49,221 nucleotides of DNA from Candidatus Aerophobota bacterium. GTDB lineage: Bacteria > Aerophobota > Aerophobia > Aerophobales > JAGGXI01. A program made the position numbers and the translations under genes. Below, piece after piece: positions 5,397 to 41,245 of this stretch. The notes beneath the pieces were generated by a model that was not told the DNA's origin, did not search any database, and worked only from the letters and a program-made list of their open reading frames with translations. The first letter of the stretch is position 1; each line of letters begins with the position of its first letter. Location: the NCBI GenBank assembly GCA_021163155.1, contig JAGGXI010000072.1:1-49221 (forward strand), given 5' to 3'.

Positions 5397-7709
5397 TTAG
5401 GGAATATCCTTCGGCAGCAAAGTATCCAAGACTTCAATGGATTTTTTTATCTTAGTTTGATAATAGGGAGTATCAATTACTGTTATTTCATTATTACAAA
5501 GTATAATATTCCCTTTATCTGATAAAAAACGGCGAACAATAGGAATGATATCCGAAGTTTCTACATGCTTTAACTTGTAGGTTCTTCTTTCTTTCCATCT
5601 GTTAAACTTATCTATAGCAAGAATTTTTTGTTTAATTCTCTTTAAAGGATAGGAAGCTTCCTGAAGTACAAATTCGTTTTTCTCTTCATCTTTACTCAAA
5701 ACCTTAGCCTCGAAAGATTTAAGTTCTCCTATTATCTCTATGATTTGGGAAAGAGGAGCATATTTTAAATGAATAATCTCCTCTCTCTTCTCTTTTTCAA
5801 AATTATCAAAACAAGTTAACTTCTCTTTAATTAAAGCCAAATGATAAGAAGAATCCTTCGCAAAAATAGAATTCTCTTCCTCATCAACTTTAACTTCTCC
5901 TTTATCAGACAAAAAAGGAATTATCTTTTTAGACAAAGGAGCAGCAAAACAGTATTTTGCTTGATAACTCATCTCCTCAGGTTGATATATATCAAATTTT
6001 TTAATATTTTTCTTTACTTCATCCAGATGCCATTTCAGAGCGATAACCACCAGAGCATTTCTGTCAGCATCTACCTTTATAGTAGCCTTATTACAAAGAA
6101 CAGAAGAGAGTGTCTTCTTAAACTCTTCTGATGAATAAAGTATATCAGCTTTTACATATTTTAAGAAAAATACTTCGCTCTTTTTTTGGGAGTTAAAATC
6201 ATCCAATTTTGCTATTTTCTCAGCTATTTTCTGAATCACCCAGTTATTATCTACCACCATTAACCTGTTCTTTTTTATATAAATATTTCCCCGAGGGGAG
6301 AGAATTTTTTTTAAAAGAGGGGTAATAAATTCACCTCTTTGAATATACTTTAAAGAAAAGCTCTTTCTTTGTAACTTTTGATTATGTTTTTCAAGAGAGG
6401 CTAAAGCTTCCTTTATTCTCATTAATTGATATGCTCCATCCTCTATTATTAAATTATACTTTTCCTTATTCATACGGATATTTCCTTTTGAAGAAAGCAA
6501 AGGAGAAAGAGCTTCTTTTGCTTCTTCAAGAGAAGAATATCTCAGGGGAAAGACTTTTTCTCTTCTTTGCTCTTTAAAAGTACCCATCCTGCTTAACATC
6601 TTCTGGATTACCTCTACTTTATCTTCAGAATCCCTTACTAAAATTGAATTAGAAGGAGCCTCTTTGGGATTTATCTCCATTGTTCCCTGAGAAGAAATAA
6701 TCCCTTTGATTTGATTAGCCATCTCTTCTGCAATAGCATATCTAAAGGAAAAAACTTTCTTACATCTTCCCTTTATCTCCCTCGGTTTAAGTATATGAGG
6801 AGTCACTGTTATAAGAAGGTTTTTTGTCGATGTTGCCGTCTTCTTACTCTTAAAAATATCACCTATAATAGGAAGGTCGGAAAGAATAGGAAGACCTTTT
6901 TCTGTCTTTTCTTTCTTCTTTATTACCAACCCTCCAATAATGATAGGCTCGTCACTCCTTACAGTGATGTTGGTAGGGGATACCTGACGAGAAAAAACAG
7001 GACGCTCTGTCCCAAATTCTTCAGTACTGTAATCACTCACTACAGGGATAATAGACATTTGAACATATTCTTTCCCTATAATTTTAGGAAGCACTTGAAG
7101 AACTATTCCTACGGTGACATAAGTATACTCTTTAGTCTCTTCACTTATTCCCGCTTCTGTTGTAGTAGTGACCTTGGAAAGATAAGAAACATCTTCAACA
7201 TTATAAATGCCGGCTACCTCTCCACTTATGGTGGTTACCCGAGGTTCTGAGAGAACTTTTGCTTCCCCTTTAGAGACAAGCATATTTAAAAGAGCCTGGA
7301 ATTCTTCCTCTCCGCTTACTAATCTATAGAAATTAAAACTGAAGCCACCTATACTTTTATTTCCTATTTCTGTAAGCGTCTTAGGGCCGTACTCCAAAAT
7401 AGTTCCCTCACCTTCAGTTCCTTTAGGAGTTTCGATGCCTGTTTTCCTCTCTATATATGCACCAAAATTCTGAGCGCCACTTTTTGTAAGCTCTAATACT
7501 CTTGCCTTAATTTGAATCTGTCTTGTCTCTAAAGGAAATTGAGGGATCATCTTCTCTATCTCTTTTAATTTCTCCCTGGGAGCTCTTACCGTAATTCTTC
7601 CCGTAGAAGTATCCACCATAATGGAGGGTTCTGCAAAAACTTTAAAATTAAAGAAAGAAAAAAAAATCATTATTAAGAAAAGTACCCCTACTATTTTAAT
7701 TTTTCTCAT
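5397..7709 (-). CDS. Pilus secretin, C-terminal half, with seven N1-like repeats after the secretin domain
   Basis: 770 residues. A signal peptide (about 1-26, cut near VFA) is followed by half an N1-like unit at 29-58 (strand pair IMVDTSTGRITV plus helix), then the outer-membrane secretin domain at about 60-308. That domain starts with RQIQIKARVLELT, passes through VGIVLQVLPKI and the GGLVIKKKEKTEKGLPILSDLPIIG segment, and ends with NLLITVTPHIL. In known secretins the protein ends about there. Here residues 319-764 add seven N1/NolW-like units, starting near 319, 386, 450, 513, 585, 646 and 710, each strand-helix-strand-helix with a SxKGxI turn. It follows pilMNOP and the 605-residue partner, so it is best seen as the pore-forming part of a type IV pilus or related PilQ. 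The role of the C-terminal array is unknown. Confidence 0.85.
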   Translation of the reverse strand: MRKIKIVGVLFLIMIFFSFFNFKVFAEPSIMVDTSTGRITVRAPREKLKEIEKMIPQFPLETRQIQIKARVLELTKSGAQNFGAYIERKTGIETPKGTEGEGTILEYGPKTLTEIGNKSIGGFSFNFYRLVSGEEEFQALLNMLVSKGEAKVLSEPRVTTISGEVAGIYNVEDVSYLSKVTTTTEAGISEETKEYTYVTVGIVLQVLPKIIGKEYVQMSIIPVVSDYSTEEFGTERPVFSRQVSPTNITVRSDEPIIIGGLVIKKKEKTEKGLPILSDLPIIGDIFKSKKTATSTKNLLITVTPHILKPREIKGRCKKVFSFRYAIAEEMANQIKGIISSQGTMEINPKEAPSNSILVRDSEDKVEVIQKMLSRMGTFKEQRREKVFPLRYSSLEEAKEALSPLLSSKGNIRMNKEKYNLIIEDGAYQLMRIKEALASLEKHNQKLQRKSFSLKYIQRGEFITPLLKKILSPRGNIYIKKNRLMVVDNNWVIQKIAEKIAKLDDFNSQKKSEVFFLKYVKADILYSSEEFKKTLSSVLCNKATIKVDADRNALVVIALKWHLDEVKKNIKKFDIYQPEEMSYQAKYCFAAPLSKKIIPFLSDKGEVKVDEEENSIFAKDSSYHLALIKEKLTCFDNFEKEKREEIIHLKYAPLSQIIEIIGELKSFEAKVLSKDEEKNEFVLQEASYPLKRIKQKILAIDKFNRWKERRTYKLKHVETSDIIPIVRRFLSDKGNIILCNNEITVIDTPYYQTKIKKSIEVLDTLLPKDIP

Positions 7710-7770
7710 TTTTCTCCCTCTAATACTGTTTTTTCTCTTTTTTGTTTTTTCCCCTTTAATCCTCTAATCC

Positions 7771-9588
7771 TTACTTTCCGGGCCCTATTGTCCCTAAATT
7801 AATGTTTGGTGAAGGGACACTCATATTCATCCATTGACCTTTTTTCTCTGTTAATTCCATTCCTTTTATATTTTCAGGTTTCACTCCAATCATATTGGCT
7901 ATAGTAATAGCTATATTATCCAGGGAACCTTCTTCAATATAAAATGTTTTGGTGGTTATCTCTTCTCCCATAGAAGAGCTATTCAGTTTTGAAATTTCCT
8001 TATTTATTTTAGGAATATTCCTTTTTAAATCAGTTATATAAATTGTATTTCTGTTTTCATAAAGTCTATTATTCTTAGGGGAACTATTCTTTTCTTGAGA
8101 TTTAAATTTAACTTCTTCTTTGCTCTCATCTTGAGGAATGATAATATAATCTTCCTCAACATTTTTCTTTTTCTCTTCAACATCTTTAACTTGAGGTAAA
8201 GATATTTTCCCGTATTCGCTAATTACATTTCGAAGAAAATATTCAGCCTCCCTGGCAGTCAAATATTCCAAAGTGTATCCCTTTGTAGTTAACTGAGAGC
8301 TTAAAACATCTACCTTATTAATTAATTCATCAACCTTTTTTAAATACTTTTCTACATCTGAAACTACAATAGTATCTGTCTTTTCATCTATCTCCACCTT
8401 ACCTTTATCCGAGAGAAGCTCCTCTATTTCTCTTGCTGTTTGAGAGAGGGGAGCAAACTTTATTCTATAAGTTTTCCTCTGGGGTTTAAAAGAATCCATC
8501 TCTCCAACAATTTTCTTTATTTTCTCTAAATTATAAGAAAAATCCTTTACTATAAGAAAAGACCTCTCCTTATCCTCCTTTAATTCTCCATAAGAGGATA
8601 GTCTCTCTTTAATAGAGGAGGACACTCTCTTTATTTGGGCATACTTTATCTGAAAATCCTCTTCCTTCATTTGCATCTGGGGATTATCTATACTTAAGAT
8701 AAAATCCTTTATTCTCTTTAAGTTATAAGAGGAGTCTGTAACTATAAGCTCATTTTTATCTTTGTTCACACTTATCTTTCCTTTAGAGCTAAGATAAGAG
8801 GGGATAAGCCTGGAAACTTCATCTGCTAAAGCAAATTTAAGGGAGAAAATTTTTAAAGTTGCCTTAAATACATCCAGAGAGGGGATAAAAGAGGATATCT
8901 CCTTCATTTTACAAGCAACATCTCTTACAAGAAGAGAATTGGCTAAAGAATTAACCTCAATTCCCCCTGTTTCACTTAAATAACTCTTTAAAATAGAGGC
9001 AGCTTTTTCAGCCTCAATAAAATTTAAGGAAAAGTTTTTTTCTCGCATCTGCCTTGCAGGCTCATCTATCTTTAAGATAGCATCCTCTATATTTTTAAAA
9101 TTCTCCTTAATATCGGTAACTATTAAAATATTTGTCTCCTCATTCACCTTAAGAATTCCCTTAGGAGAGAGAAATGATTTAATAGAAGATGCCTGTTCAG
9201 TAGCCAAAGCATACTTTAAGGGGAAATCCTTTGTGAGAAGAGAAACTTTTGCCTTGACCACCTTTATAACATTGTTATCTACTATCTGGTAATCGCAATC
9301 ACTTCCCTTAAGAATGATTTGAAGAGCTTTTAATGCAGGAATGGGCCTGGGGAAACTCGCTGTTACTTTTCCTTCTACATCAGGACCTATAATCATATTT
9401 AAACCTGTTTTAAGAGATATAGCATGTAGAGCATCTCTTAAATTAATATCTGTAAAATTTAAAAAGATATCTTCACTCTGATAAGATATCTTACTGATAT
9501 TGGGGGAGGAACCAAAACAAGAAGAATCTAAAGTAATTATTCCTACCAGTAATCCTAAAAATATCCATACTTTTATTACCTTCATCAT
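7771..9588 (-). CDS. Pilus secretin, N-terminal half: STN domain plus N1-like array
   Basis: 605 residues with an N-terminal signal sequence (hydrophobic 8-20). C24 follows DSS, a poor lipobox. Residues 38-112 are a secretin/TonB short N-terminal (STN, N0) domain. N1-like units start near 120, 185, 246, 311, 373 and 437; the sixth has a charged insertion at about 465-508. Residues 546-605 supply only the first strand and helix of a seventh unit and then stop in a Gly/Pro/Asn-rich tail. There is no secretin domain. The missing second half of that unit begins the next gene, 61 bases downstream. It starts directly after the pilP stop codon. I infer that it forms the periplasmic rings of a two-gene PilQ. 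Confidence 0.82.
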   Translation of the reverse strand: MMKVIKVWIFLGLLVGIITLDSSCFGSSPNISKISYQSEDIFLNFTDINLRDALHAISLKTGLNMIIGPDVEGKVTASFPRPIPALKALQIILKGSDCDYQIVDNNVIKVVKAKVSLLTKDFPLKYALATEQASSIKSFLSPKGILKVNEETNILIVTDIKENFKNIEDAILKIDEPARQMREKNFSLNFIEAEKAASILKSYLSETGGIEVNSLANSLLVRDVACKMKEISSFIPSLDVFKATLKIFSLKFALADEVSRLIPSYLSSKGKISVNKDKNELIVTDSSYNLKRIKDFILSIDNPQMQMKEEDFQIKYAQIKRVSSSIKERLSSYGELKEDKERSFLIVKDFSYNLEKIKKIVGEMDSFKPQRKTYRIKFAPLSQTAREIEELLSDKGKVEIDEKTDTIVVSDVEKYLKKVDELINKVDVLSSQLTTKGYTLEYLTAREAEYFLRNVISEYGKISLPQVKDVEEKKKNVEEDYIIIPQDESKEEVKFKSQEKNSSPKNNRLYENRNTIYITDLKRNIPKINKEISKLNSSSMGEEITTKTFYIEEGSLDNIAITIANMIGVKPENIKGMELTEKKGQWMNMSVPSPNINLGTIGPGK

Positions 9589-10020
9589 CTATCTCCCTAT
9601 TTTTAATTTAATCACCCCATCTTTTCCTATTAAAATGACTTCTCCTGTATCCCTTTTAATCTCAGATATTACAAAATTCTTTATAATATCTCCTCTTTTC
9701 ACAATCCATATCTTCTTTTCCTCTTGAATAATGGCAAGTATTCCTTTCTCATCTCCCACCAAACCCACTAACTTATATTTTGAATTTAGTAATATTTTAG
9801 GAGAAACTGCTAACTTATTAGGTTTAGAAGATTTATAGACTCTCTTTTTGCTTAATAGAGATACGAAAGGGTCTCTTCTCTCTTCACTTTTATATTGAAA
9901 AAAGGACGAGGAAAAATTTGTCCCTTTATCTACCTCTTTTTCTTCTTTTGCCAGAGAAATATTAATATTAAAAGAAGAGATAAGGATTATCTCTAAAATC
10001 ACCAAAAAAATATATCTCAT
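9589..10020 (-). CDS. pilP: PilP-like pilus assembly protein
   Basis: 143 residues with a signal peptide (1-24, ending SLAKEE) and a single domain carrying the PilP hallmark RRDPF at residues 48-52, then beta-rich segments such as YKLVGLVGDEKGILAII and WIVKRGDII. PilP links the inner-membrane PilN/PilO pair to the secretin in the periplasm. No lipobox cysteine is visible, unlike many PilP lipoproteins. The start codon overlaps the pilO stop by four bases, and the stop abuts the start of the secretin N-terminal half, so the stoichiometry of the two is probably coupled. Confidence 0.85.
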   Translation of the reverse strand: MRYIFLVILEIILISSFNINISLAKEEKEVDKGTNFSSSFFQYKSEERRDPFVSLLSKKRVYKSSKPNKLAVSPKILLNSKYKLVGLVGDEKGILAIIQEEKKIWIVKRGDIIKNFVISEIKRDTGEVILIGKDGVIKLKIGR

Positions 10021-10673
10021 TCCCTTTTCCTATTAACTGCTAAAGCAGGGCCTTCTTTCTTTCCTTCACTAACCTTAGGAGTAGGCTTAAAAGAGGATTC
10101 TTTGTAAGTATACATTAAAAGGACCATTTCTATATCTATGGTATTTTTTTTATTCAACTTTTTACTTTCTTCTGTTGTGGTCAATCCTTTTATCCTAATC
10201 TCTTCCACATTAAAAGGAACCATTGCTTTTTTTCTGTTTATATCTGAAAGAAGCATACCTAAAGCATGATAAGTAGAATAAAAATGCATTCTTACCGGAA
10301 GATAGTTATAATACTTTCCCTTGACTATCTGTTGAGGAACTATTTTTATATAATCAATGCCGTATATTTGTGCTTTAACCCCTATTTCTTGAAGGAAAAA
10401 GTATATCTGATCTTCCGTAGAAAGACTTTCTTCTAGAGAAGAGACTCTTGCTTTTGTCTCCTCATATTTACGTTCTATTTCACCATGTTTATAAACTTCT
10501 TTTTGGGCTCGATTAAGAATTAAATTATCCTCGCTTATCTGCCTTCTTATTTTTTTAAGGAGTTTAATCTGAGGAAGATAAAAACCCCAATAAAAAGTGC
10601 AAATTATAGCTAAGCACACTCCTAATCCTATTACTATTCTACCTTTTGGCGTTAAAAAAGATAGTTTACTCAC
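10017..10673 (-). CDS. pilO: Type IV pilus inner-membrane protein PilO
   Basis: 218 residues: a short cytoplasmic N-terminus, one transmembrane helix at about 13-31, a coiled-coil stretch at about 36-85 (IRRQISEDNLILNRAQKEV and following) and a ferredoxin-like periplasmic domain. LPVRMHFYSTYHALGMLLSDI resembles the PilO core in which the helix packs on a beta sheet. A basic, proline-containing tail ends the protein. It overlaps pilN and pilP by four bases on each side (ATGA junctions), as expected for a PilN-PilO heterodimer made in step. Confidence 0.88.
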   Translation of the reverse strand: MSKLSFLTPKGRIVIGLGVCLAIICTFYWGFYLPQIKLLKKIRRQISEDNLILNRAQKEVYKHGEIERKYEETKARVSSLEESLSTEDQIYFFLQEIGVKAQIYGIDYIKIVPQQIVKGKYYNYLPVRMHFYSTYHALGMLLSDINRKKAMVPFNVEEIRIKGLTTTEESKKLNKKNTIDIEMVLLMYTYKESSFKPTPKVSEGKKEGPALAVNRKRE

Positions 10674-11239
10674 TGCTCTTCCTCTCCAAAAAGTTTCAAA
10701 CTACAATTTAGCTTAAATTCCATCACTCCTGTTCCATCTATCACTCTTCTGGATATCTCGGAAAGATTTATTCGGTTAAAAAGAGAAGAATTATTTAAAT
10801 TCTCCATAAACTTAGCTATATCCACAGTCTGGTTGAAACTATATCCCCGAATATTAACCATTCTCTCTTTATTCTTAGGGATTTGTGTAAGTTCAGCTAA
10901 CCAGATATTATCTGGTAAGGACTTACTTATTACATAAAGAATTTGAGGCCAGGAAGGTCGATTGGCCACTAATTTCCTAAGATTATTAAGATGGGAGGTG
11001 ATTTCGGCTTCCTTAGCTTTCAATTCTTTTAATTCCACTAATAAAGGCTGGTATTTTTTAATTTCACTTTTAATTAAATTTGATTGTCTTACAGCTATTT
11101 TAACCTCTTCTTTAACGGAGAAAAAAAGGGAAAGACAAATTAAAACAATGGTTACAGCGGATATGGAAATAAAAATAGCGAAAGCCTTTATTCCTTTACG
11201 TTTAAGCGCTTGTTCAGGTAATAGATTTATCTCTATCAT
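10670..11239 (-). CDS. pilN: Type IV pilus inner-membrane protein PilN
   Basis: 189 residues starting with the conserved MIEINLLPEQ, the cytoplasmic segment that PilN inserts into a groove on PilM. One transmembrane helix lies at about 20-42, followed by a coiled coil (about 45-85) and a periplasmic domain containing PDNIWLAELTQIP and NIRGYSFNQTVDIAKFMENL, typical of the family. The stop overlaps the pilO start and the start overlaps the pilM stop, each by four bases. Confidence 0.92.
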   Translation of the reverse strand: MIEINLLPEQALKRKGIKAFAIFISISAVTIVLICLSLFFSVKEEVKIAVRQSNLIKSEIKKYQPLLVELKELKAKEAEITSHLNNLRKLVANRPSWPQILYVISKSLPDNIWLAELTQIPKNKERMVNIRGYSFNQTVDIAKFMENLNNSSLFNRINLSEISRRVIDGTGVMEFKLNCSLKLFGEEEQ

Positions 11240-12294
11240 ACCTCTGCCACCTTTCTAAAAGCTAAACCTAACACTGGAGTAAACATCGGCTCTACTTCAG
11301 CTAAATAATTAGGCTGGAATTTTCGAGAATCGTAGATAATTTTCTTAAAAGGATGGTATTTCTCTACAGGTATTCCCAACTCTTCGGATAAAAATCCCTC
11401 TATATTCTTAAGACAGGAGGTACCTCCGCTAAGAATTAATTTATTTATAATTTCTCCTCTTTTTTGAGAAGTATAATATTCAAAAGAATGAATAACCTCT
11501 TTTATTAAATTATCCATAGATTTCCTGATCACTTTATCTACCAATCTTCTTTCTTTTTCCTCTTCTTTCTCTATATCCTGAAAAGCAAGAAGTCCATATC
11601 TTTTCTTTATTTCCTCTGCTTCTTTGTAATCAACTTTTAATTGTTTTGCAATAGAGTGTGTAATCTGGAAACCTCCTATATTTATGTCCCTTACTACAAA
11701 GGGACTGCCTTTAAATAACAAGACAATACTGGTTGTGTAATGCCCAATATCAAGAAGAGCTATATTGCTTAATTCTTCTTCATTAAACAATTGAAAAACA
11801 TTAAATAGAGCAAGAGCCTTAACATCTATAATCTGAGGAGAAATACCTGCTTTTTGGAGAAGATTAAGATGTGCATCAATCAGCTCCTTCTTTACGCCTA
11901 CCAGCATTACAGACATTTTTCCCCCCGCCAAGTCCTTATCAAGAATGTGGAATCCTAATGAGATATCATTGGATGGATAAGGGATATACTCTTCTACTTG
12001 CCATTTAATAGATTGTGCAAATTCTTTCTCTGTCATTCGAGGCATTTCCACTATGCGAACAATCACTTTATCTCCCCCTATTCCAGAAACAATTCGTTTT
12101 GGATTAATTTTATATTTGCTAACAATCTTTTTGATGGCTTCTATAGTAAGAGATTCTGACTGAGAATTATCTTCTATAGGGTTTATTTCTACCATACCCA
12201 ACTTTCTTAATTCATAACCTCTCTTTCTATGAATTAATTCTACTGCTTTTACTATTCTTCCTCCTATTTCCAAACCCACACTTACCTTAGCCAT
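11236..12294 (-). CDS. pilM: Type IV pilus assembly ATPase-fold protein PilM
   Basis: 352-residue actin/FtsA-like cytoplasmic protein that binds the N-terminus of PilN and couples the cytoplasmic side of the pilus to the periplasmic alignment complex. Phosphate-binding segments are visible: VGLEIGGRIVKAVEL at the N-terminus, NIALLDIGHYTTSIVLL in the second lobe, and LILSGGTSCLKNIEGFL as the adenosine motif. It is the first gene of the pil set, only five bases after dtd. No pilB, pilT, pilC or pilin gene is in the window. Confidence 0.94.
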   Translation of the reverse strand: MAKVSVGLEIGGRIVKAVELIHRKRGYELRKLGMVEINPIEDNSQSESLTIEAIKKIVSKYKINPKRIVSGIGGDKVIVRIVEMPRMTEKEFAQSIKWQVEEYIPYPSNDISLGFHILDKDLAGGKMSVMLVGVKKELIDAHLNLLQKAGISPQIIDVKALALFNVFQLFNEEELSNIALLDIGHYTTSIVLLFKGSPFVVRDINIGGFQITHSIAKQLKVDYKEAEEIKKRYGLLAFQDIEKEEEKERRLVDKVIRKSMDNLIKEVIHSFEYYTSQKRGEIINKLILSGGTSCLKNIEGFLSEELGIPVEKYHPFKKIIYDSRKFQPNYLAEVEPMFTPVLGLAFRKVAEV

Positions 12295-34474: not shown

Positions 34475-37400
34475 TTAGTTTTCGTGTAAATCTGTATTTA
34501 AAAATCCTGTTCCTGCAGGAATTAGTTTACCAATAATCACATTCTCCTTTAATCCTTTTAATTGATCTATCTGCCCCCAAACAGCTGCCTCTACTAAAAC
34601 TTGTTTTGCTCTCTGAAAAGAAGCAGCGGATAAGAAACTCCTATTATCTTCTTGCACTGCTTTGGGTATTGATAAAAGAACAGGTTTTACTTTAGCTGGC
34701 TTACCGCCATTCTTTTTTATTTCCCTGTTAATCTCCTCAAACTCTACTTTATCTATCTGTTCTCCTGGCAGGTAATCTGTATCTCCTGGATCTTCTATTT
34801 CTACCCTTCTCATCATTTGCCTTATAATTACTTCAAAATGTTTGAGATTTATATCTACCCCCTGAGATAGATAAACTTCCTGAGTCTGGTTAACTAAATA
34901 CTCTTCTACCGCCCTAACTCCTTTTATATTTAAAAGAACCCGCGGATTTGTACTCCCCTCAATAATCTTTCTCCCCGCCTCTACTTTCTCTCCATCGGAG
35001 ACGAGTAGCTCTCCTCCTGCTTCGTAAACTATTTCTTCCCCTTTTTCTCCTTGTATCCTAACAAATGAACGTCCTTCTTTATTTTCTATTTTTACTATGC
35101 CTTCCCTTTCGCTTATAAGTGCCTCTTCTCCTTCCCTTTGTCTAATAGACTTTTCTTGGGAATAGTTATGCCTTCGAGGTTCAAACAACTCTGTTACTCG
35201 AGGTAAACCTTGGGGGATATCTCCCCCTTTTCGAAATATCCCTCCTGTATGGAAAGTACGTAAAGTGAGCTGAGTTCCTGGTTCTCCTATAGACTGAGCA
35301 GCTATAACCCCTACAGCTTCTCCTACATTAACTAATTTATGAGTAGATAAATCCCAGCCATAACACCTTTGACACAATCCCCATTTAGCCTGACAAGTCA
35401 AAGGAGAACGAACTTTCACCTTTTTTATCCCTACTTTCTCTATTCTTTCTGCCATCTCCTCTGTTATCTCTTTGTTGGAACCTATTATTACCTCTTTTGT
35501 AGAAGGATCTATTACTGGGGAAACGGTTACCCTACCCACTATTCTACTACTTAAAGATTTTATTAATTTCCCTTCTTCAATTAAAGGACTTATATATAAA
35601 CCATCTATAGTTCCGCAATCCTCTTCTGAAATAATAATATTTTGAGCTACAGCTACTAACTTACGGGTAAGATATCCTGCATAAGCTGTCTTGAGAGCAG
35701 TATCTACTAATCCTTTTCTACCTCCCGATGTGGAGAGAAAATACTCTGAAGTAGTAAGGCCATCTTTAAAACTCGACTTGATAGGTTCTTCAACAATCCT
35801 TCCTCTTAACCTTCCTCCCGAGAGAGGATAAAAATATTGTCTAATTAAAGCAGGAGAAATATTAAGTTGTCTTTTAAATGCTTCATCCCAAAGCTCATGT
35901 CGATAAGTCTCTCTTATGGATCTCCCCATTAAACCCTTCATTCCAACTATTTGACGTAATTGATCCTTACTTCCCCTTGCTCCAGATTTCCACATCAAAT
36001 AAAGAGGATTAAAAATATCCTTTGAAAGATATTGAGATACCTTTTCCCCTATTTGCTCAGTAGCTCTTACTCTTAGATCTATCACATCCATATATCTCTC
36101 TTCTTCGCTAATTTCCCCATCCTCTGCCCTTCTATTATATCCCTCCACTTCTTCCTCTATCGCTTGCAAAAATTTCTTCTTCTTTGGCATATTAGGGATA
36201 TCGCTAATAGAGAAAGTCAAACCTGACTTAGTAGCATATTCAAATCCTATTTTTTTTATTTTATCTAAAACTTTAATGGTAGTCATATTTCCATACTTTT
36301 TCCAAATTTCACTTACTATTTCTGTAAGAGCTTTTTTATCTACTAAACAATTCTTAAATTCCATCCCTTGGGGTAGAACTTGATTTAAAATTACCCTTCC
36401 TGGGGTAGTAGATATCCAACCTTTCCCTTGACGTAGTTTTATTTTCTGATGAAGAGCTAATTTCCCCAGCTCATAAACAAAAATCACTTCCTCTCTACTT
36501 GAAAAAACTCTCTCTTCCTCACCTGTATCCTTTTCTAAAGTTAAATAATAACAACCAACCGTTATATCTTGAGTAGGGGAGATTATAGGCTCTCCGTGAG
36601 AAGGAGAAATTATATTATTGATGGAAAACATCAAAGTTTTTGTCTCAAGTTGTGCTTCAAATGAGAGAGGGATATGTATAGCCATTTGATCTCCATCAAA
36701 ATCGGCATTAAAAGCTGTACACACTAAAGGATGAAGTTGAATAGCATTTCCTTCTATTAAAATAGGCTGGAAAGCTTGCATTCCTAAACGATGGAGGGTA
36801 GGAGCTCTGTTAAGGATTACAGGATGATCTTTAACTACTCTTTCTAATATTTCCCAAATGAAAGGCTCTGTTTTTTCTATAAAGTCATTAGCTCTCTTTA
36901 TAGTTTCTGCTTTACCTTCAAGTAAGATTTCTGCCAGGACAAAAGGCCTGAAAAGTTCTAGAGCCATTTTTTCGGGAACTCCGCATTGATGTAATTTTAA
37001 ATCCGGGCCCGGTATAATCACAGCCCTACCAGAATAATCAACTCTCTTACCCAATAGATTTTGCCTGAATCTACCTTGCTTTCCTTTCATTATCTCGCTT
37101 AAAGATTTAAGAGGTCTATGAGCAGCGCCTAATATAGGTTGAGGGATCTTTTCGTTTTCAATAAGAGCATCTACTGATTGCTGAAGCATCTTTTTTTCAT
37201 TTTGAATAATTATCTGAGGAGCTCCTATATCTAGCAAATATCTAAGGCGATTATTTCGATTAATAATACGTCGATATAAATCATTTAAATCTGAATTAGC
37301 AAAAACCCCGTTTTCTAACTGGACCATAGGTCGAAAGTCAGGAGGTATAACAGGAATAATCTTTAAAATTACCCACTCCGGCTTATTGCCTGAATAAACA

Positions 37401-40400
37401 AATTTCTTCATTACCCCTAACTGCTTAATTAACTTAATTCTTTTAGTTTTATTTCCTTCTTCAAGGAGTTTTTCTTTCAATCTTTTCATTGATTCTTCTA
37501 AGTCCATATTCTCTAAAATTTCTAAAATTGCTTCTGCTCCCATACCTGCACGGAAAGCATCTTCTCCATAAATCTGTTTATATCTTTGATACTCCTCTTC
37601 ACTTAAAATTTGTAATTTCTTTAAAGGAGTTTTACCGGGGTCAATTATTAAATAGTTCATAAAATAGATTACCTTTTCTACCTCACTTCTTTTAAGATTA
37701 AGTAAAGACGGCAAATATTTCTTTACATACCAGATATGAGTAACAGGAGTAGACAACTCGATATGCCCCATTCTTTCTCGGCGAACTTTGGATGAGGTAA
37801 CCTCAACCCCACATCTCTCACATACTACACCCTTATATTTCATCTTTCTATATTTACCACAATAGCATTCATAGCTTTTTGTAGGCCCAAAGATTTGTTC
37901 ACAAAAAAGTCCTCCTCTCTCTGGCCTAAAAGTCCGATAATTAATAGTATCTGTCTTTCTCACCTCTCCATGAGACCACTTCCTTATCTCTTCAGAAGAA
38001 GCTAATCTTATCTTTATTTTATCTATATTATCCATCTTCCATGGTTCTTCCCCTTTTTCCATATCCTCGATAGAAAATTTTTTAGTGCCTTCCCAAAACT
38101 CCAAATTCAATCCCAGGGCTTGAAGCTCTTTAACTAAAACCTTGAAAGATTCAGGAGTTTGAGTACTTAATGTATTTTCCCTTTTTACTATCTCTTCATG
38201 GATTTTGGTTCTTCCCTGAATATCATCAGATTTATTGGTAAGCATTTCCTGAAGAGTATAGGCTGCTCCATATCCTTCCAAAGCCCATACTTCCATTTCC
38301 CCGAATCTCTGTCCTCCTTGCCTTGACCTCCCCCCTAATGGCTGCTGAGTAATCAAAGCATAAGGTCCGGTAGAACGAGCATGTATTTTCTCCTCAGCTA
38401 AGTGGATGAGTTTCATTATATACATATAACCTACGGCAACTGGCTGATGAAAAGGCTCTCCTGTCCGCCCATCATAAAGAATAGTCTTCCCTGACTCGGA
38501 AAGATGAGCCTTATTTAATAGCTCCCTTATCTTATCCTCCAGGGGGCCCTCAAAAACAGGGCATATCATATATGCACCTAAAGTTTTCGCTATCCATCCT
38601 AAGTGCATCTCTAATATCTGACCTATATTCATTCTCGAAGGAACCCCTAAAGGATTTAAGACTATCTCTATAGGCGTTCCATCAGGAAGATAAGGCATAT
38701 CTTCCTCAGGAAGCACCCTGGAGACGACTCCCTTATTTCCATGACGGCCAGCCATCTTATCCCCGACCCCAATTTTGCGCCTAACGGCTATATATACCTT
38801 TACTCTCTTTCTTACATTAGGAGGAAGATTATCTTTGTTAGATTGAGAAAGAACTTTAATTTTAATTACCTTTCCTTTAACACCTGGAGGAATCCTTAAA
38901 GAATTATCCTTAACTTTTTGCGCTTTTTCTCCAAAGATGCTACGCAACAGTCTCTCTTCAGGAGTAAGCTTTATCTCAACTTGGGGAGTCACCTTACCTA
39001 CTATAATATCTCCTGGCTTTACCTCTGCTCCTATTCTAATGATACCCTCTCCATCTAAATTTTTTAAAACTGTTTCTTCCACATTAGGAACATCGGCGGT
39101 TATCTCCTCTATTCCTGATTTAAGTTCTTTTGCCTCAACTTGAAATTCCTCAATATGAATAGAGGTAAAAGTATCTTCCTTTACTAATTTTTCGCTAACT
39201 AAGATTGCATCTTCAAAATTGTATCCTTCCCAGGGCATAAAAGCTACGAGAATATTTCTTCCTAAAGAGAGTTTACCATTATTCATAGCTGGGCCATCAG
39301 CTATGAATGCCCCCTCTTTTATTCTGTCCCCTTTAGATACTAAAACTCTTTGATTTATACAAGTTTTTTGATTGGACTTTCTAAATTTTACTAAATTATA
39401 TGTATCTATGCCTTCAGAACTCCTTACACTTACTTTATCAGCATCTACATAGACGACTTCTCCCCCTTTCTTCGCTACTGTTCCAACCATAGAATCTTTA
39501 GCTACTTTTCCTTCTACTCCTGTTTGAACAAAAGGCTCTTCTGGAATTTCTAAGGGGACTGCCTGACGTTGCATATTCGATCCCATCAAAGCTCGGTTAG
39601 CTTCATCGCTCTCTAAAAAAGGAATCAATGAAGTACTAATACTTACCATTTGTTTAGGAGATACATCTATATAATCTATCTCTTCTTTAGCAACCTTTAC
39701 AATCTCTCCCTTATGCCTGGCTATAACTTGCAGGTCTATAAAATTTCCTTCTTCATCAACAGCACCAGCACCAGCAATATGGTACTTATCCTCTTCTCTT
39801 GCATCCAAATATACTATTTCTTTAGTAGCTCTTCCCTTCTTCACTTTTCTATAAGGAGCCTCCAAAAAACCTAATTCATTTATCCTGGCATAACTAGCTA
39901 AAGAAGCAATTAAACCAATGTTTTGCCCTTCAGGGGTTTCTATGGGGCAAATACGTCCATAATGGGTATAATGAACATCTCTCACTTCTTCTTTAGCCTG
40001 AACGCGTGTTAATCCTCCAAGACCAAGAGCCGACAGTCTACGTTTATGAGTTAGCTCAGCTAAAGGGTTAGTTTGATCTAAATATTGAGAAAGAGAGCCT
40101 GTATTAAAAAAACCATTTATTGCACTTCTCATTACATTGGTATTAATAAGAGAACGAGGAGAAACTTTATCCGGCTCCTGAATACTCATTCCTTGTTGAA
40201 CTATTCTTGCCAAATGGACCAAACCAATATGAAACTGGTTAGCTAAAAGTTCACCTATCCCTCTTACCCTTCTGCAAGAAAGATGATCTATGCTTTTAAT
40301 CTCTTCTTTTTCTCTATTTAATTTGAATAGATGTTTTATAGTTTCTACCACATCTTTTAATTGAAGAATTCCTACATCCCAATTATTATTTAAATCTAAC

Positions 40401-41245
40401 TCCTTATTTATTTGATATCTTCCTGTTTTACTTAGATTATACCTATGAGGATCACGGAAATTCTTATCAAAGATTTCTTTTGGTGATTCAAAGATAGCTG
40501 AATGCCCGGGCCGAAGTCTCTGATAAATCTTAAGAAGAGCCTCTTTTTGCGATTTTACTCCGTCTTGCTCAAAACTTTCTTTTAACATCTTTCTATCTCT
40601 AAAATCAGTAAATTCATTGATAATTTGTTCAGGAACTCCCCCCATAGCCCTTATAAATAAGGTAGTCAAAAATTTCCTTCCTCTATTAATACGTGTATAC
40701 AAAAAATCTTTTTTAATTTCAAAATCTAACCAGTTTCCTCTTTCAGGTATAATTCGCGCTTTATAAAGCACTCCTTTCCCTGTCGTAGCTGTAGGATCCT
40801 CCTCAAAAAAGAGACCTGGTGAGCGTTGAAGCTGACTTACTATTACTCTTTCCGCCCCATTAATAATAAAGCTTCCCTTTTCAGTCATCAATGGAAGATT
40901 GCCTAAATAAATCTCTTGTTCAGTTACCTCCCCCGTTTCTGTCCTCTTTAAACGAAGTTTAACATATAAAAAAAGAGAATATGTAAGTTCTTCTTCCCTG
41001 CATTTTTCTATACTATATTGAGGTTTACTAAGTTGATATTCTACAAAATCTAAACGTAATTTTCTATTATAACTCTCTATAGGAAAAACATCTTTAAATA
41101 TCGCTTGTAATCCCTCATTCTTCCTCTTATTTGGAGGAACATCCTCTTGTAGAAAGTTTTTAAAAGAGATTTTCTGCATCTGTAGAAGATCGGAAGTATC
41201 TATTACAGATTTAGATTTAGTAAAATCTATTATTTTCTCTTTCAT
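34475..41245 (-). CDS. rpoBC: Fused RNA polymerase beta-beta-prime subunit (RpoB-RpoC)
   Basis: One open frame of 2256 codons. Residues 1-1046 are RpoB, with the rifampicin-pocket segment around residue 390 (SLSQYLDQTNPLAELTHKRR) and the C-terminal SFKVLVKELQALGL. About 20 linker residues follow. A methionine at 1071 (nt 38035) then begins the normal RpoC N-terminus (IDKIKIRLASSEEIRKWSHG). RpoC has the zinc cysteines C1127, C1129, C1142 and C1145, the magnesium-binding NADFDGDQ at 1513-1520, and a second cysteine cluster (CQAKWGLCQRC). Both halves are of normal length for proteins without large lineage inserts. Fused rpoBC is known from Helicobacter and Wolbachia; those events are separate. 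The start has GGAG eight bases upstream. Confidence 0.96.
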   Translation of the reverse strand: MKEKIIDFTKSKSVIDTSDLLQMQKISFKNFLQEDVPPNKRKNEGLQAIFKDVFPIESYNRKLRLDFVEYQLSKPQYSIEKCREEELTYSLFLYVKLRLKRTETGEVTEQEIYLGNLPLMTEKGSFIINGAERVIVSQLQRSPGLFFEEDPTATTGKGVLYKARIIPERGNWLDFEIKKDFLYTRINRGRKFLTTLFIRAMGGVPEQIINEFTDFRDRKMLKESFEQDGVKSQKEALLKIYQRLRPGHSAIFESPKEIFDKNFRDPHRYNLSKTGRYQINKELDLNNNWDVGILQLKDVVETIKHLFKLNREKEEIKSIDHLSCRRVRGIGELLANQFHIGLVHLARIVQQGMSIQEPDKVSPRSLINTNVMRSAINGFFNTGSLSQYLDQTNPLAELTHKRRLSALGLGGLTRVQAKEEVRDVHYTHYGRICPIETPEGQNIGLIASLASYARINELGFLEAPYRKVKKGRATKEIVYLDAREEDKYHIAGAGAVDEEGNFIDLQVIARHKGEIVKVAKEEIDYIDVSPKQMVSISTSLIPFLESDEANRALMGSNMQRQAVPLEIPEEPFVQTGVEGKVAKDSMVGTVAKKGGEVVYVDADKVSVRSSEGIDTYNLVKFRKSNQKTCINQRVLVSKGDRIKEGAFIADGPAMNNGKLSLGRNILVAFMPWEGYNFEDAILVSEKLVKEDTFTSIHIEEFQVEAKELKSGIEEITADVPNVEETVLKNLDGEGIIRIGAEVKPGDIIVGKVTPQVEIKLTPEERLLRSIFGEKAQKVKDNSLRIPPGVKGKVIKIKVLSQSNKDNLPPNVRKRVKVYIAVRRKIGVGDKMAGRHGNKGVVSRVLPEEDMPYLPDGTPIEIVLNPLGVPSRMNIGQILEMHLGWIAKTLGAYMICPVFEGPLEDKIRELLNKAHLSESGKTILYDGRTGEPFHQPVAVGYMYIMKLIHLAEEKIHARSTGPYALITQQPLGGRSRQGGQRFGEMEVWALEGYGAAYTLQEMLTNKSDDIQGRTKIHEEIVKRENTLSTQTPESFKVLVKELQALGLNLEFWEGTKKFSIEDMEKGEEPWKMDNIDKIKIRLASSEEIRKWSHGEVRKTDTINYRTFRPERGGLFCEQIFGPTKSYECYCGKYRKMKYKGVVCERCGVEVTSSKVRRERMGHIELSTPVTHIWYVKKYLPSLLNLKRSEVEKVIYFMNYLIIDPGKTPLKKLQILSEEEYQRYKQIYGEDAFRAGMGAEAILEILENMDLEESMKRLKEKLLEEGNKTKRIKLIKQLGVMKKFVYSGNKPEWVILKIIPVIPPDFRPMVQLENGVFANSDLNDLYRRIINRNNRLRYLLDIGAPQIIIQNEKKMLQQSVDALIENEKIPQPILGAAHRPLKSLSEIMKGKQGRFRQNLLGKRVDYSGRAVIIPGPDLKLHQCGVPEKMALELFRPFVLAEILLEGKAETIKRANDFIEKTEPFIWEILERVVKDHPVILNRAPTLHRLGMQAFQPILIEGNAIQLHPLVCTAFNADFDGDQMAIHIPLSFEAQLETKTLMFSINNIISPSHGEPIISPTQDITVGCYYLTLEKDTGEEERVFSSREEVIFVYELGKLALHQKIKLRQGKGWISTTPGRVILNQVLPQGMEFKNCLVDKKALTEIVSEIWKKYGNMTTIKVLDKIKKIGFEYATKSGLTFSISDIPNMPKKKKFLQAIEEEVEGYNRRAEDGEISEEERYMDVIDLRVRATEQIGEKVSQYLSKDIFNPLYLMWKSGARGSKDQLRQIVGMKGLMGRSIRETYRHELWDEAFKRQLNISPALIRQYFYPLSGGRLRGRIVEEPIKSSFKDGLTTSEYFLSTSGGRKGLVDTALKTAYAGYLTRKLVAVAQNIIISEEDCGTIDGLYISPLIEEGKLIKSLSSRIVGRVTVSPVIDPSTKEVIIGSNKEITEEMAERIEKVGIKKVKVRSPLTCQAKWGLCQRCYGWDLSTHKLVNVGEAVGVIAAQSIGEPGTQLTLRTFHTGGIFRKGGDIPQGLPRVTELFEPRRHNYSQEKSIRQREGEEALISEREGIVKIENKEGRSFVRIQGEKGEEIVYEAGGELLVSDGEKVEAGRKIIEGSTNPRVLLNIKGVRAVEEYLVNQTQEVYLSQGVDINLKHFEVIIRQMMRRVEIEDPGDTDYLPGEQIDKVEFEEINREIKKNGGKPAKVKPVLLSIPKAVQEDNRSFLSAASFQRAKQVLVEAAVWGQIDQLKGLKENVIIGKLIPAGTGFLNTDLHEN

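Follow-up and report, generated by a model that had tools for sequence, protein, structure and literature searches.

Secretins are generally taken to be homo-oligomers of a single chain. A precedent for a split secretin has been published for mitochondria: in jakobids, heteroloboseans, and malawimonads, GspD of the mitochondrial type II secretion system (T2SS) is divided into several polypeptides, of which GspDN2 corresponds to the C-terminal half of an N domain and GspDN3 to the N-terminal half, and a yeast two-hybrid signal was obtained between GspD and GspDN1 (PMC8134430). Gene fission is also described for another pilus machine component of the same superfamily, TadB/TadC of Tad pili (PMC6668835), but there it affects the inner-membrane platform and falls between two whole domains rather than within one domain.

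Here, we describe a pair of adjacent genes in a 49,221-nucleotide (nt) stretch of DNA (the window) from a Candidatus Aerophobota bacterium (contig JAGGXI010000072.1, assembly GCA_021163155.1). One encodes a protein of N-terminal ring domains (the N protein) and the other a protein with the secretin domain (the S protein). The best explanation of this pair is that this lineage of Aerophobota produces its type IV pilus secretin in the form of two exported polypeptides. We propose, with a probability of about 0.7, that it is a two-chain secretin in which the last periplasmic ring is completed across the chains. The observation has been confirmed as real and is no artefact; its new elements are the recurrence of the split across phyla and an array of N domains at the C-terminus of the S protein, the split as such having its mitochondrial precedent.

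Like the mitochondrial GspD, the Aerophobota secretin is spread over polypeptides, with half Secretin_N domains on different chains (PMC8134430), a likeness of plan that does not imply common descent. The mitochondrial system is eukaryotic, more fragmented, and without N0, and its GspD has none of the N domains and an incomplete C-domain, whereas the Aerophobota pair has exactly two chains, lies in a bacterial pilus operon, and has the second half of the divided domain fused directly to the secretin domain. The first-pass annotation, made from this DNA alone, had stated that no secretin built in this way was described; that statement has to be qualified, the mitochondrial split being published (PMC8134430) and the intra-domain split also occurring in two other bacterial phyla (see below). 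Searches of the literature on bacterial split secretins, planctomycete T2SS secretins, and Aerophobetes pili returned no description, their coverage being incomplete and absence not being proof. Separated N domains are reportedly mentioned for planctomycete T2SS secretins.

Architecture of the Two Proteins

The two open reading frames (ORFs), confirmed at their annotated coordinates, lie in different frames with a gap of 61 nt between them. Their features are as follows:

7771..9588, minus strand: N protein, 605 amino acids (aa) (ORF and Pfam)
9508..9588, minus strand: N protein signal peptide, residues 1-27 (by eye; MMKVIKVWIFLGLLVGIITLDSSCFGSS)
9259..9462, minus strand: N0 domain, residues 43-110 (PF21305)
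7873..7953, minus strand: first half (b1-a1) of the split N domain, residues 546-572 (profile alignment, template 2-23)
7774..7872, minus strand: conserved C-terminal tail of the N protein, residues 573-605 (alignment A2)
5397..7709, minus strand: S protein, 770 aa (ORF and Pfam)
7632..7709, minus strand: S protein signal peptide, residues 1-26 (by eye; MRKIKIVGVLFLIMIFFSFFNFKVFA)
7536..7628, minus strand: second half (b2-b3-a2) of the split N domain, residues 28-58 (Secretin_N 33-63; template 28-57)
6786..7280, minus strand: secretin domain (Pfam core), residues 144-308 (PF00263, E 9.4e-36)
5421..6761, minus strand: seven Secretin_N domains after the secretin domain, residues 317-763 (N-domain hidden Markov model (HMM), 43-66 bits each)

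In the N protein, a signal peptide and N0 are thus followed by six Secretin_N domains and half of another, and the protein ends in a conserved tail. Pfam searches gave 33.2 bits for type_II_gspD_N0 and 136.7 bits for Secretin_N, and an iterated N-domain HMM located five whole N domains (119-175, 182-241, 246-301, 308-367, and 370-427) and a sixth, with a loop insertion, at 435-536; it found no match in residues 546-605. The tail contains four invariant residues in alignment A2 (W586, I596, G599, and G602). A hydrophobic N-terminus is present in every relative in which the start of the N protein is on the contig. The length of this protein ranges from 589 to more than 1200 aa, and it is enlarged through duplicated whole N0+N1-5 blocks at L045 3-3611 of G015 (>1202 aa) and at L032 4465-7398 of G004 (977 aa).

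The S protein starts with its own signal peptide, continues with the second half of the split N domain and the secretin domain, and ends with seven Secretin_N domains. It scores 123.4 bits with the Pfam Secretin family (cut-off 27.5) and 104.3 bits with Secretin_N, and the N-domain HMM gives a partial match at residues 28-58 (model positions 27-57 of 60). A separate signal peptide on the downstream part, as put forward in the first-pass annotation, is borne out by a hydrophobic start in all ten homologues. That annotation's description of a half domain running into a secretin domain also stands, although it missed the seven domains at about 317-763. The family's N0 and Secretin_N domains are present in this secretin, but N0, with six and a half of the N domains, sits on a chain of its own; the usual, though not strictly defining, arrangement of N domains and secretin domain on one polypeptide is replaced in the ten Aerophobota pairs by two ORFs.

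In canonical secretins, the region after the secretin domain is on the periplasmic side, and the C-terminal N domains of the S protein would therefore most likely be further rings or an arm in the periplasm. They are modelled as repeated N folds, with a predicted local distance difference test (pLDDT) score mostly of 80-92. Among 122 secretin ORFs, a set in which some loci are entered more than once, Aerophobota S proteins alone were found to have N domains (2-7 of them) following the secretin domain. The same model detects the upstream N domains in most of the other secretins, which makes it a fair, if not exhaustive, control. The S protein of G007 (L038) ends after its second C-terminal repeat, at a TAG at about 6516, beyond which the frame continues open up to 741 aa; this may be a recent shortening.

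Complementary Half Domains on Two Polypeptides

The two ends that face each other across the gene boundary cover complementary, non-overlapping stretches of one domain template. This template, a profile of 91 complete Aerophobota N domains, has 60 positions; the N-half profile aligns to positions 2-23 with a score of 15.4 (40 column shuffles: mean 8.8, maximum 12.3) and the S-half profile to positions 28-57 with a score of 31.4. The joined profile aligns to positions 2-57 with a score of 34.7 (column shuffles: mean 31.9, maximum 34.2). In the Pfam Secretin_N comparison given below, the match runs through both halves when they are joined in N-S order; when the order is swapped, the S-half alone matches (18.0 bits). 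For the N-half, the sequence gives modest support by itself, but the assignment falls on the very part that S lacks. These alignments agree with the earlier proposal that the N protein ends after the first strand and helix of an N domain and that the S protein begins with a strand pair and helix that would complete it. The unit had been called N1-like; an N domain it is, but it is the last one before the secretin domain and hence N3-like by position.

Conservation points the same way. The S-half has a mean pairwise identity of 64%, compared with 58% for the secretin core and 40-61% for the C-terminal repeats, and the N-half has 63%, compared with 43-50% for the whole N repeats and 51% for the tail. 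The halves are therefore among the best-conserved parts of their proteins, which would be unexpected for two unrelated fragments. The chains are cut in the helix 1-strand 2 loop, which also holds variable insertions in whole N domains, including domain 6 of the N protein.

Structure models were made with AlphaFold2. The S protein was modelled alone from ten sequences (mean pLDDT 72.9), and its residues 28-39 have a pLDDT below 50. The junction was modelled for a relative, G005 (L037), in which the two genes have the same frame and a 21-nt gap between them; three stops were read as residues, which turns the spacer and signal peptide into an artificial linker. The joint alignment of N and S was bridged by the row of an in-frame read-through from G015. 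The G005 model contains b1 (97-103), a1 (109-120), b2 (198-202), b3 (207-213), and a2 (214-226), in a block with a pLDDT of about 64-85, while the linker (132-194) is below 50; the strand and helix of the N-half are thus also formed in the modelled homologue. This read-through model matches GspD of V. cholerae (E 6e-13) and PilQ (E 8e-13), and the fold match, along with the secretin domain, is consistent with a multimeric outer-membrane channel. The S-half block has a pLDDT of about 64-85 with the N-half in the chain, versus 40-65 alone.

Several results weigh against the completion of one domain across two chains. The gain in confidence is only suggestive because the two models come from different species and shallow alignments, because their overall confidence is low (mean pLDDT 58 for G005 and 73 for S alone), and because the linker is artificial. 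With Pfam Secretin_N (length 69, family cut-off 28.2 bits), the S-half alone (27-58) matches positions 33-63 of 69 with 19.6 bits, but the N-half alone (540-605) has no match, and the joined halves of the window match positions 2-63 with 21.9 bits, which is under the cut-off. Co-assembly and cross-chain completion are what we infer from these data.

The Locus and Its Relatives

The pair is the last part of a pilus gene cluster. On the minus strand, the order in the window is pilM, pilN, pilO, a PilP-like gene, the N protein, the S protein, purE, and enolase:

11236..12294, minus strand: pilM (PF11104, 152.8 bits)
10670..11239, minus strand: pilN (PF05137, 47.9 bits)
10017..10673, minus strand: pilO (PF04350, 40 bits)
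9589..10020, minus strand: PilP-like gene (PF04351, 17.7 bits, under the curated cut-off; the order is kept in relatives)

The position after pilM, pilN, pilO, and pilP, with PilP sub-threshold in Pfam, is that of PilQ of type IVa pili (TIGR02515), which also has N0 and N domains followed by a secretin domain; PilQ, however, is one chain, whereas the Aerophobota protein is two and has N domains after the secretin domain as well. The AMIN domain (PF11741), common but not universal in PilQ, had no match in the window proteins at E up to 1. The best-scoring NCBIfam family for each chain is GspD of T2SS (TIGR02517), and the N0 is of the GspD type, but GspD is a single chain and the Aerophobota neighbourhood is pilMNOP. 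Neither chain reaches the cut-off of either family (TIGR02515, 284.35: S 169.2, N 152.8; TIGR02517, 351.35: S 236.3, N 164.9).

In the genome that the window comes from (1.83 Mb, 93% complete), a search with the secretin family found one locus, the N/S pair, and no second secretin. PilB-like, PilT-like, and PilC-like proteins and seven pilin-like N-termini are encoded elsewhere in this genome.

The same two-gene pair occurs at nine further loci from eight relatives of the same order, seven of whose metagenome-assembled genomes (MAGs) are Candidatus Aerophobetes, while one bears a Clostridia label but groups with Aerophobota. These loci were found by a profile search of the relatives' contigs with alignment A1; a single S protein as the query found none. 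Together with the window, this makes ten pairs in nine MAGs from several genera and families. In all ten, the break is at the same place, and the S proteins start with a signal peptide and then (P/S)S(I/M).VD..TGRI. The spacing between the genes varies from 1-nt overlaps through 11, 21, 40, 50, and 61 nt up to about 100-200 nt, and the frames vary too. Eight of the ten pairs overlap or have a gap of 61 nt at most, a closeness compatible with coupled expression.

The order pilM-N-O-P, N protein, S protein, which the first-pass annotation had suggested looking for next to pilP, is present in every relative with enough contig, usually with purE and enolase after it. In G015, there are two split pairs and two ordinary secretins (L044, L045, L042, and L043); in front of each ordinary secretin lies an additional ORF of about 260 aa with N0 and N1.

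Split Secretins in Two Other Phyla

Of 386 sampled genomes, two (G296 and G134, which represent two other phyla) have very short secretin frames of the split type. The N protein of G296 (493 aa) has N0 and three Secretin_N domains and ends in ...QQVYVYRLEHADVDNVAEILRGIFE followed by an Asn/Gly-rich tail; its S protein (405 aa) has a signal peptide, b2-b3-a2, and the secretin domain. Here, the halves match the Secretin_N profile with 19.4 bits each (positions 2-26 and 32-69), and once joined, they reach 38.0 bits, above the 28.2 cut-off. A short secretin with an N-type ORF ending in the same way just upstream is present in 10 of the 14 genomes of the G296 phylum. The same plan is found in G134 and four further members of its phylum, where the N protein ends in ...EERVFKLMHIDKKTLEDAIKM... 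and the S protein has a signal peptide and then ..TLxIRETPxNLxKIEQxIKSLD.

The splits in these phyla resemble that of Aerophobota in consisting of two adjacent exported proteins cut at the same loop of the last N domain (helix 1/strand 2). They differ in that their N proteins have low-complexity tails, versus the conserved tail of Aerophobota, and in that these phyla retain ordinary single-chain secretins as well; no N domains were found after the secretin domain in the S proteins of the G296 and G134 phyla.

When 96 secretin domains were placed in a tree, the splits of Aerophobota, of the G296 phylum, and of the G134 phylum formed three separate clades with a support of 99-100. A common clade for the three is not rejected (approximately unbiased test, p = 0.24) and deep support is weak; for these reasons, we do not claim independent origins of the split as shown. 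The idea that an ancestral pilQ was split in a ring domain holds insofar as the fission is conserved; a single-chain ancestor is reasonable, but the tree does not resolve it.

G080 (L090) and G042 (L091) have short secretins in which the last N domain seems to begin partway through, but these were not counted as splits at the same site, the G080 secretin matching Secretin_N from position 6. G080 (L090 2997-4987) has two short secretins in tandem (338 and 325 aa), which follow an AMIN/TPR/STN protein ending in a strand-like segment; this is perhaps another kind of division. The Phycisphaerae loci L059-L061 were left out on account of weak secretin matches and uninformative reading frames.

Mechanism and Alternative Explanations

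In the proposed mechanism, the N protein would build the periplasmic ring stack of N0 and repeated N domains, which would dock to PilP, and the S protein would build the outer-membrane channel. In the last ring under the channel, the N protein would give strand 1 and helix 1, and S would give strands 2-3 and helix 2, so that the full channel would close only with both proteins present. The C-terminal N domains of S may form additional rings in the periplasm or an arm that surrounds the stack. A bolder version, which we offer tentatively and consider doubtful as a whole, is that the split at the helix 1-strand 2 loop arose several times as an assembly checkpoint in which the channel completes only after meeting the separately exported ring stack, and that the Aerophobota S protein returns up to seven ring-building domains to the periplasm as a second ring set or outer sleeve not known in any secretin.

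One alternative is that the two proteins form one pilus channel without sharing a domain: the N ring stack would abut the S channel, and each half would be capped by the N tail or by neighbouring subunits. The tail is conserved to its last residues and could stand in for b2-b3 of the N-half, which is itself weak by sequence alone. However, ten pairs and two other phyla retain both halves at complementary positions, the tails in those phyla being of low complexity and having nothing in common, and the S-half is more conserved than the secretin core. We therefore think separate capping rather unlikely, if the most serious of the alternatives. It is improbable that the pair is an accessory system and that the true pilQ is in the missing part of the genome: the source genome is only 93% complete, and ordinary secretins exist beside the pair in G001, G010, and G015, but the pair itself follows pilMNOP in every relative with enough contig, and no other secretin was seen in G002, G004, G005, G007, G011, and G013.

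The change of frame between the ORFs of the window could also suggest a recent frameshift, an assembly error, or the recoding of one gene. Yet the split recurs in every one of the ten pairs, found in nine MAGs that span several genera and families, with varying spacings and frames and with a signal peptide on each S protein, which makes this explanation hardly credible; recoding or read-through between the genes is ruled out by the differing frames, the spacers, and the signal peptide that each S protein has of its own. This leaves the two-chain secretin, with its last ring completed across the chains, as our preferred explanation.

A Fused rpoB-rpoC in the Same Window

Elsewhere in the window, rpoB and rpoC are fused: a 2256-aa ORF (34475-41245, minus strand) contains RpoB domains followed by RpoC domains. 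In six other Aerophobota, the two genes are in the same frame, and the match across their junction contains one or two stops; in most of the remaining Aerophobota, the matches are separate.

Significance

A conserved two-chain form, if true, would mean that the subunits of a ring can be built by complementation between proteins, and that the length of the periplasmic stack can vary independently. It would also mean that annotation and system-finding models expecting one secretin gene misread such systems. With the split secretins described here, the divided GspD of the mitochondrial T2SS, whose half N domains remain unexplained, has counterparts in bacteria, and the Aerophobota pair offers a system for testing why a break inside a ring domain is tolerated.

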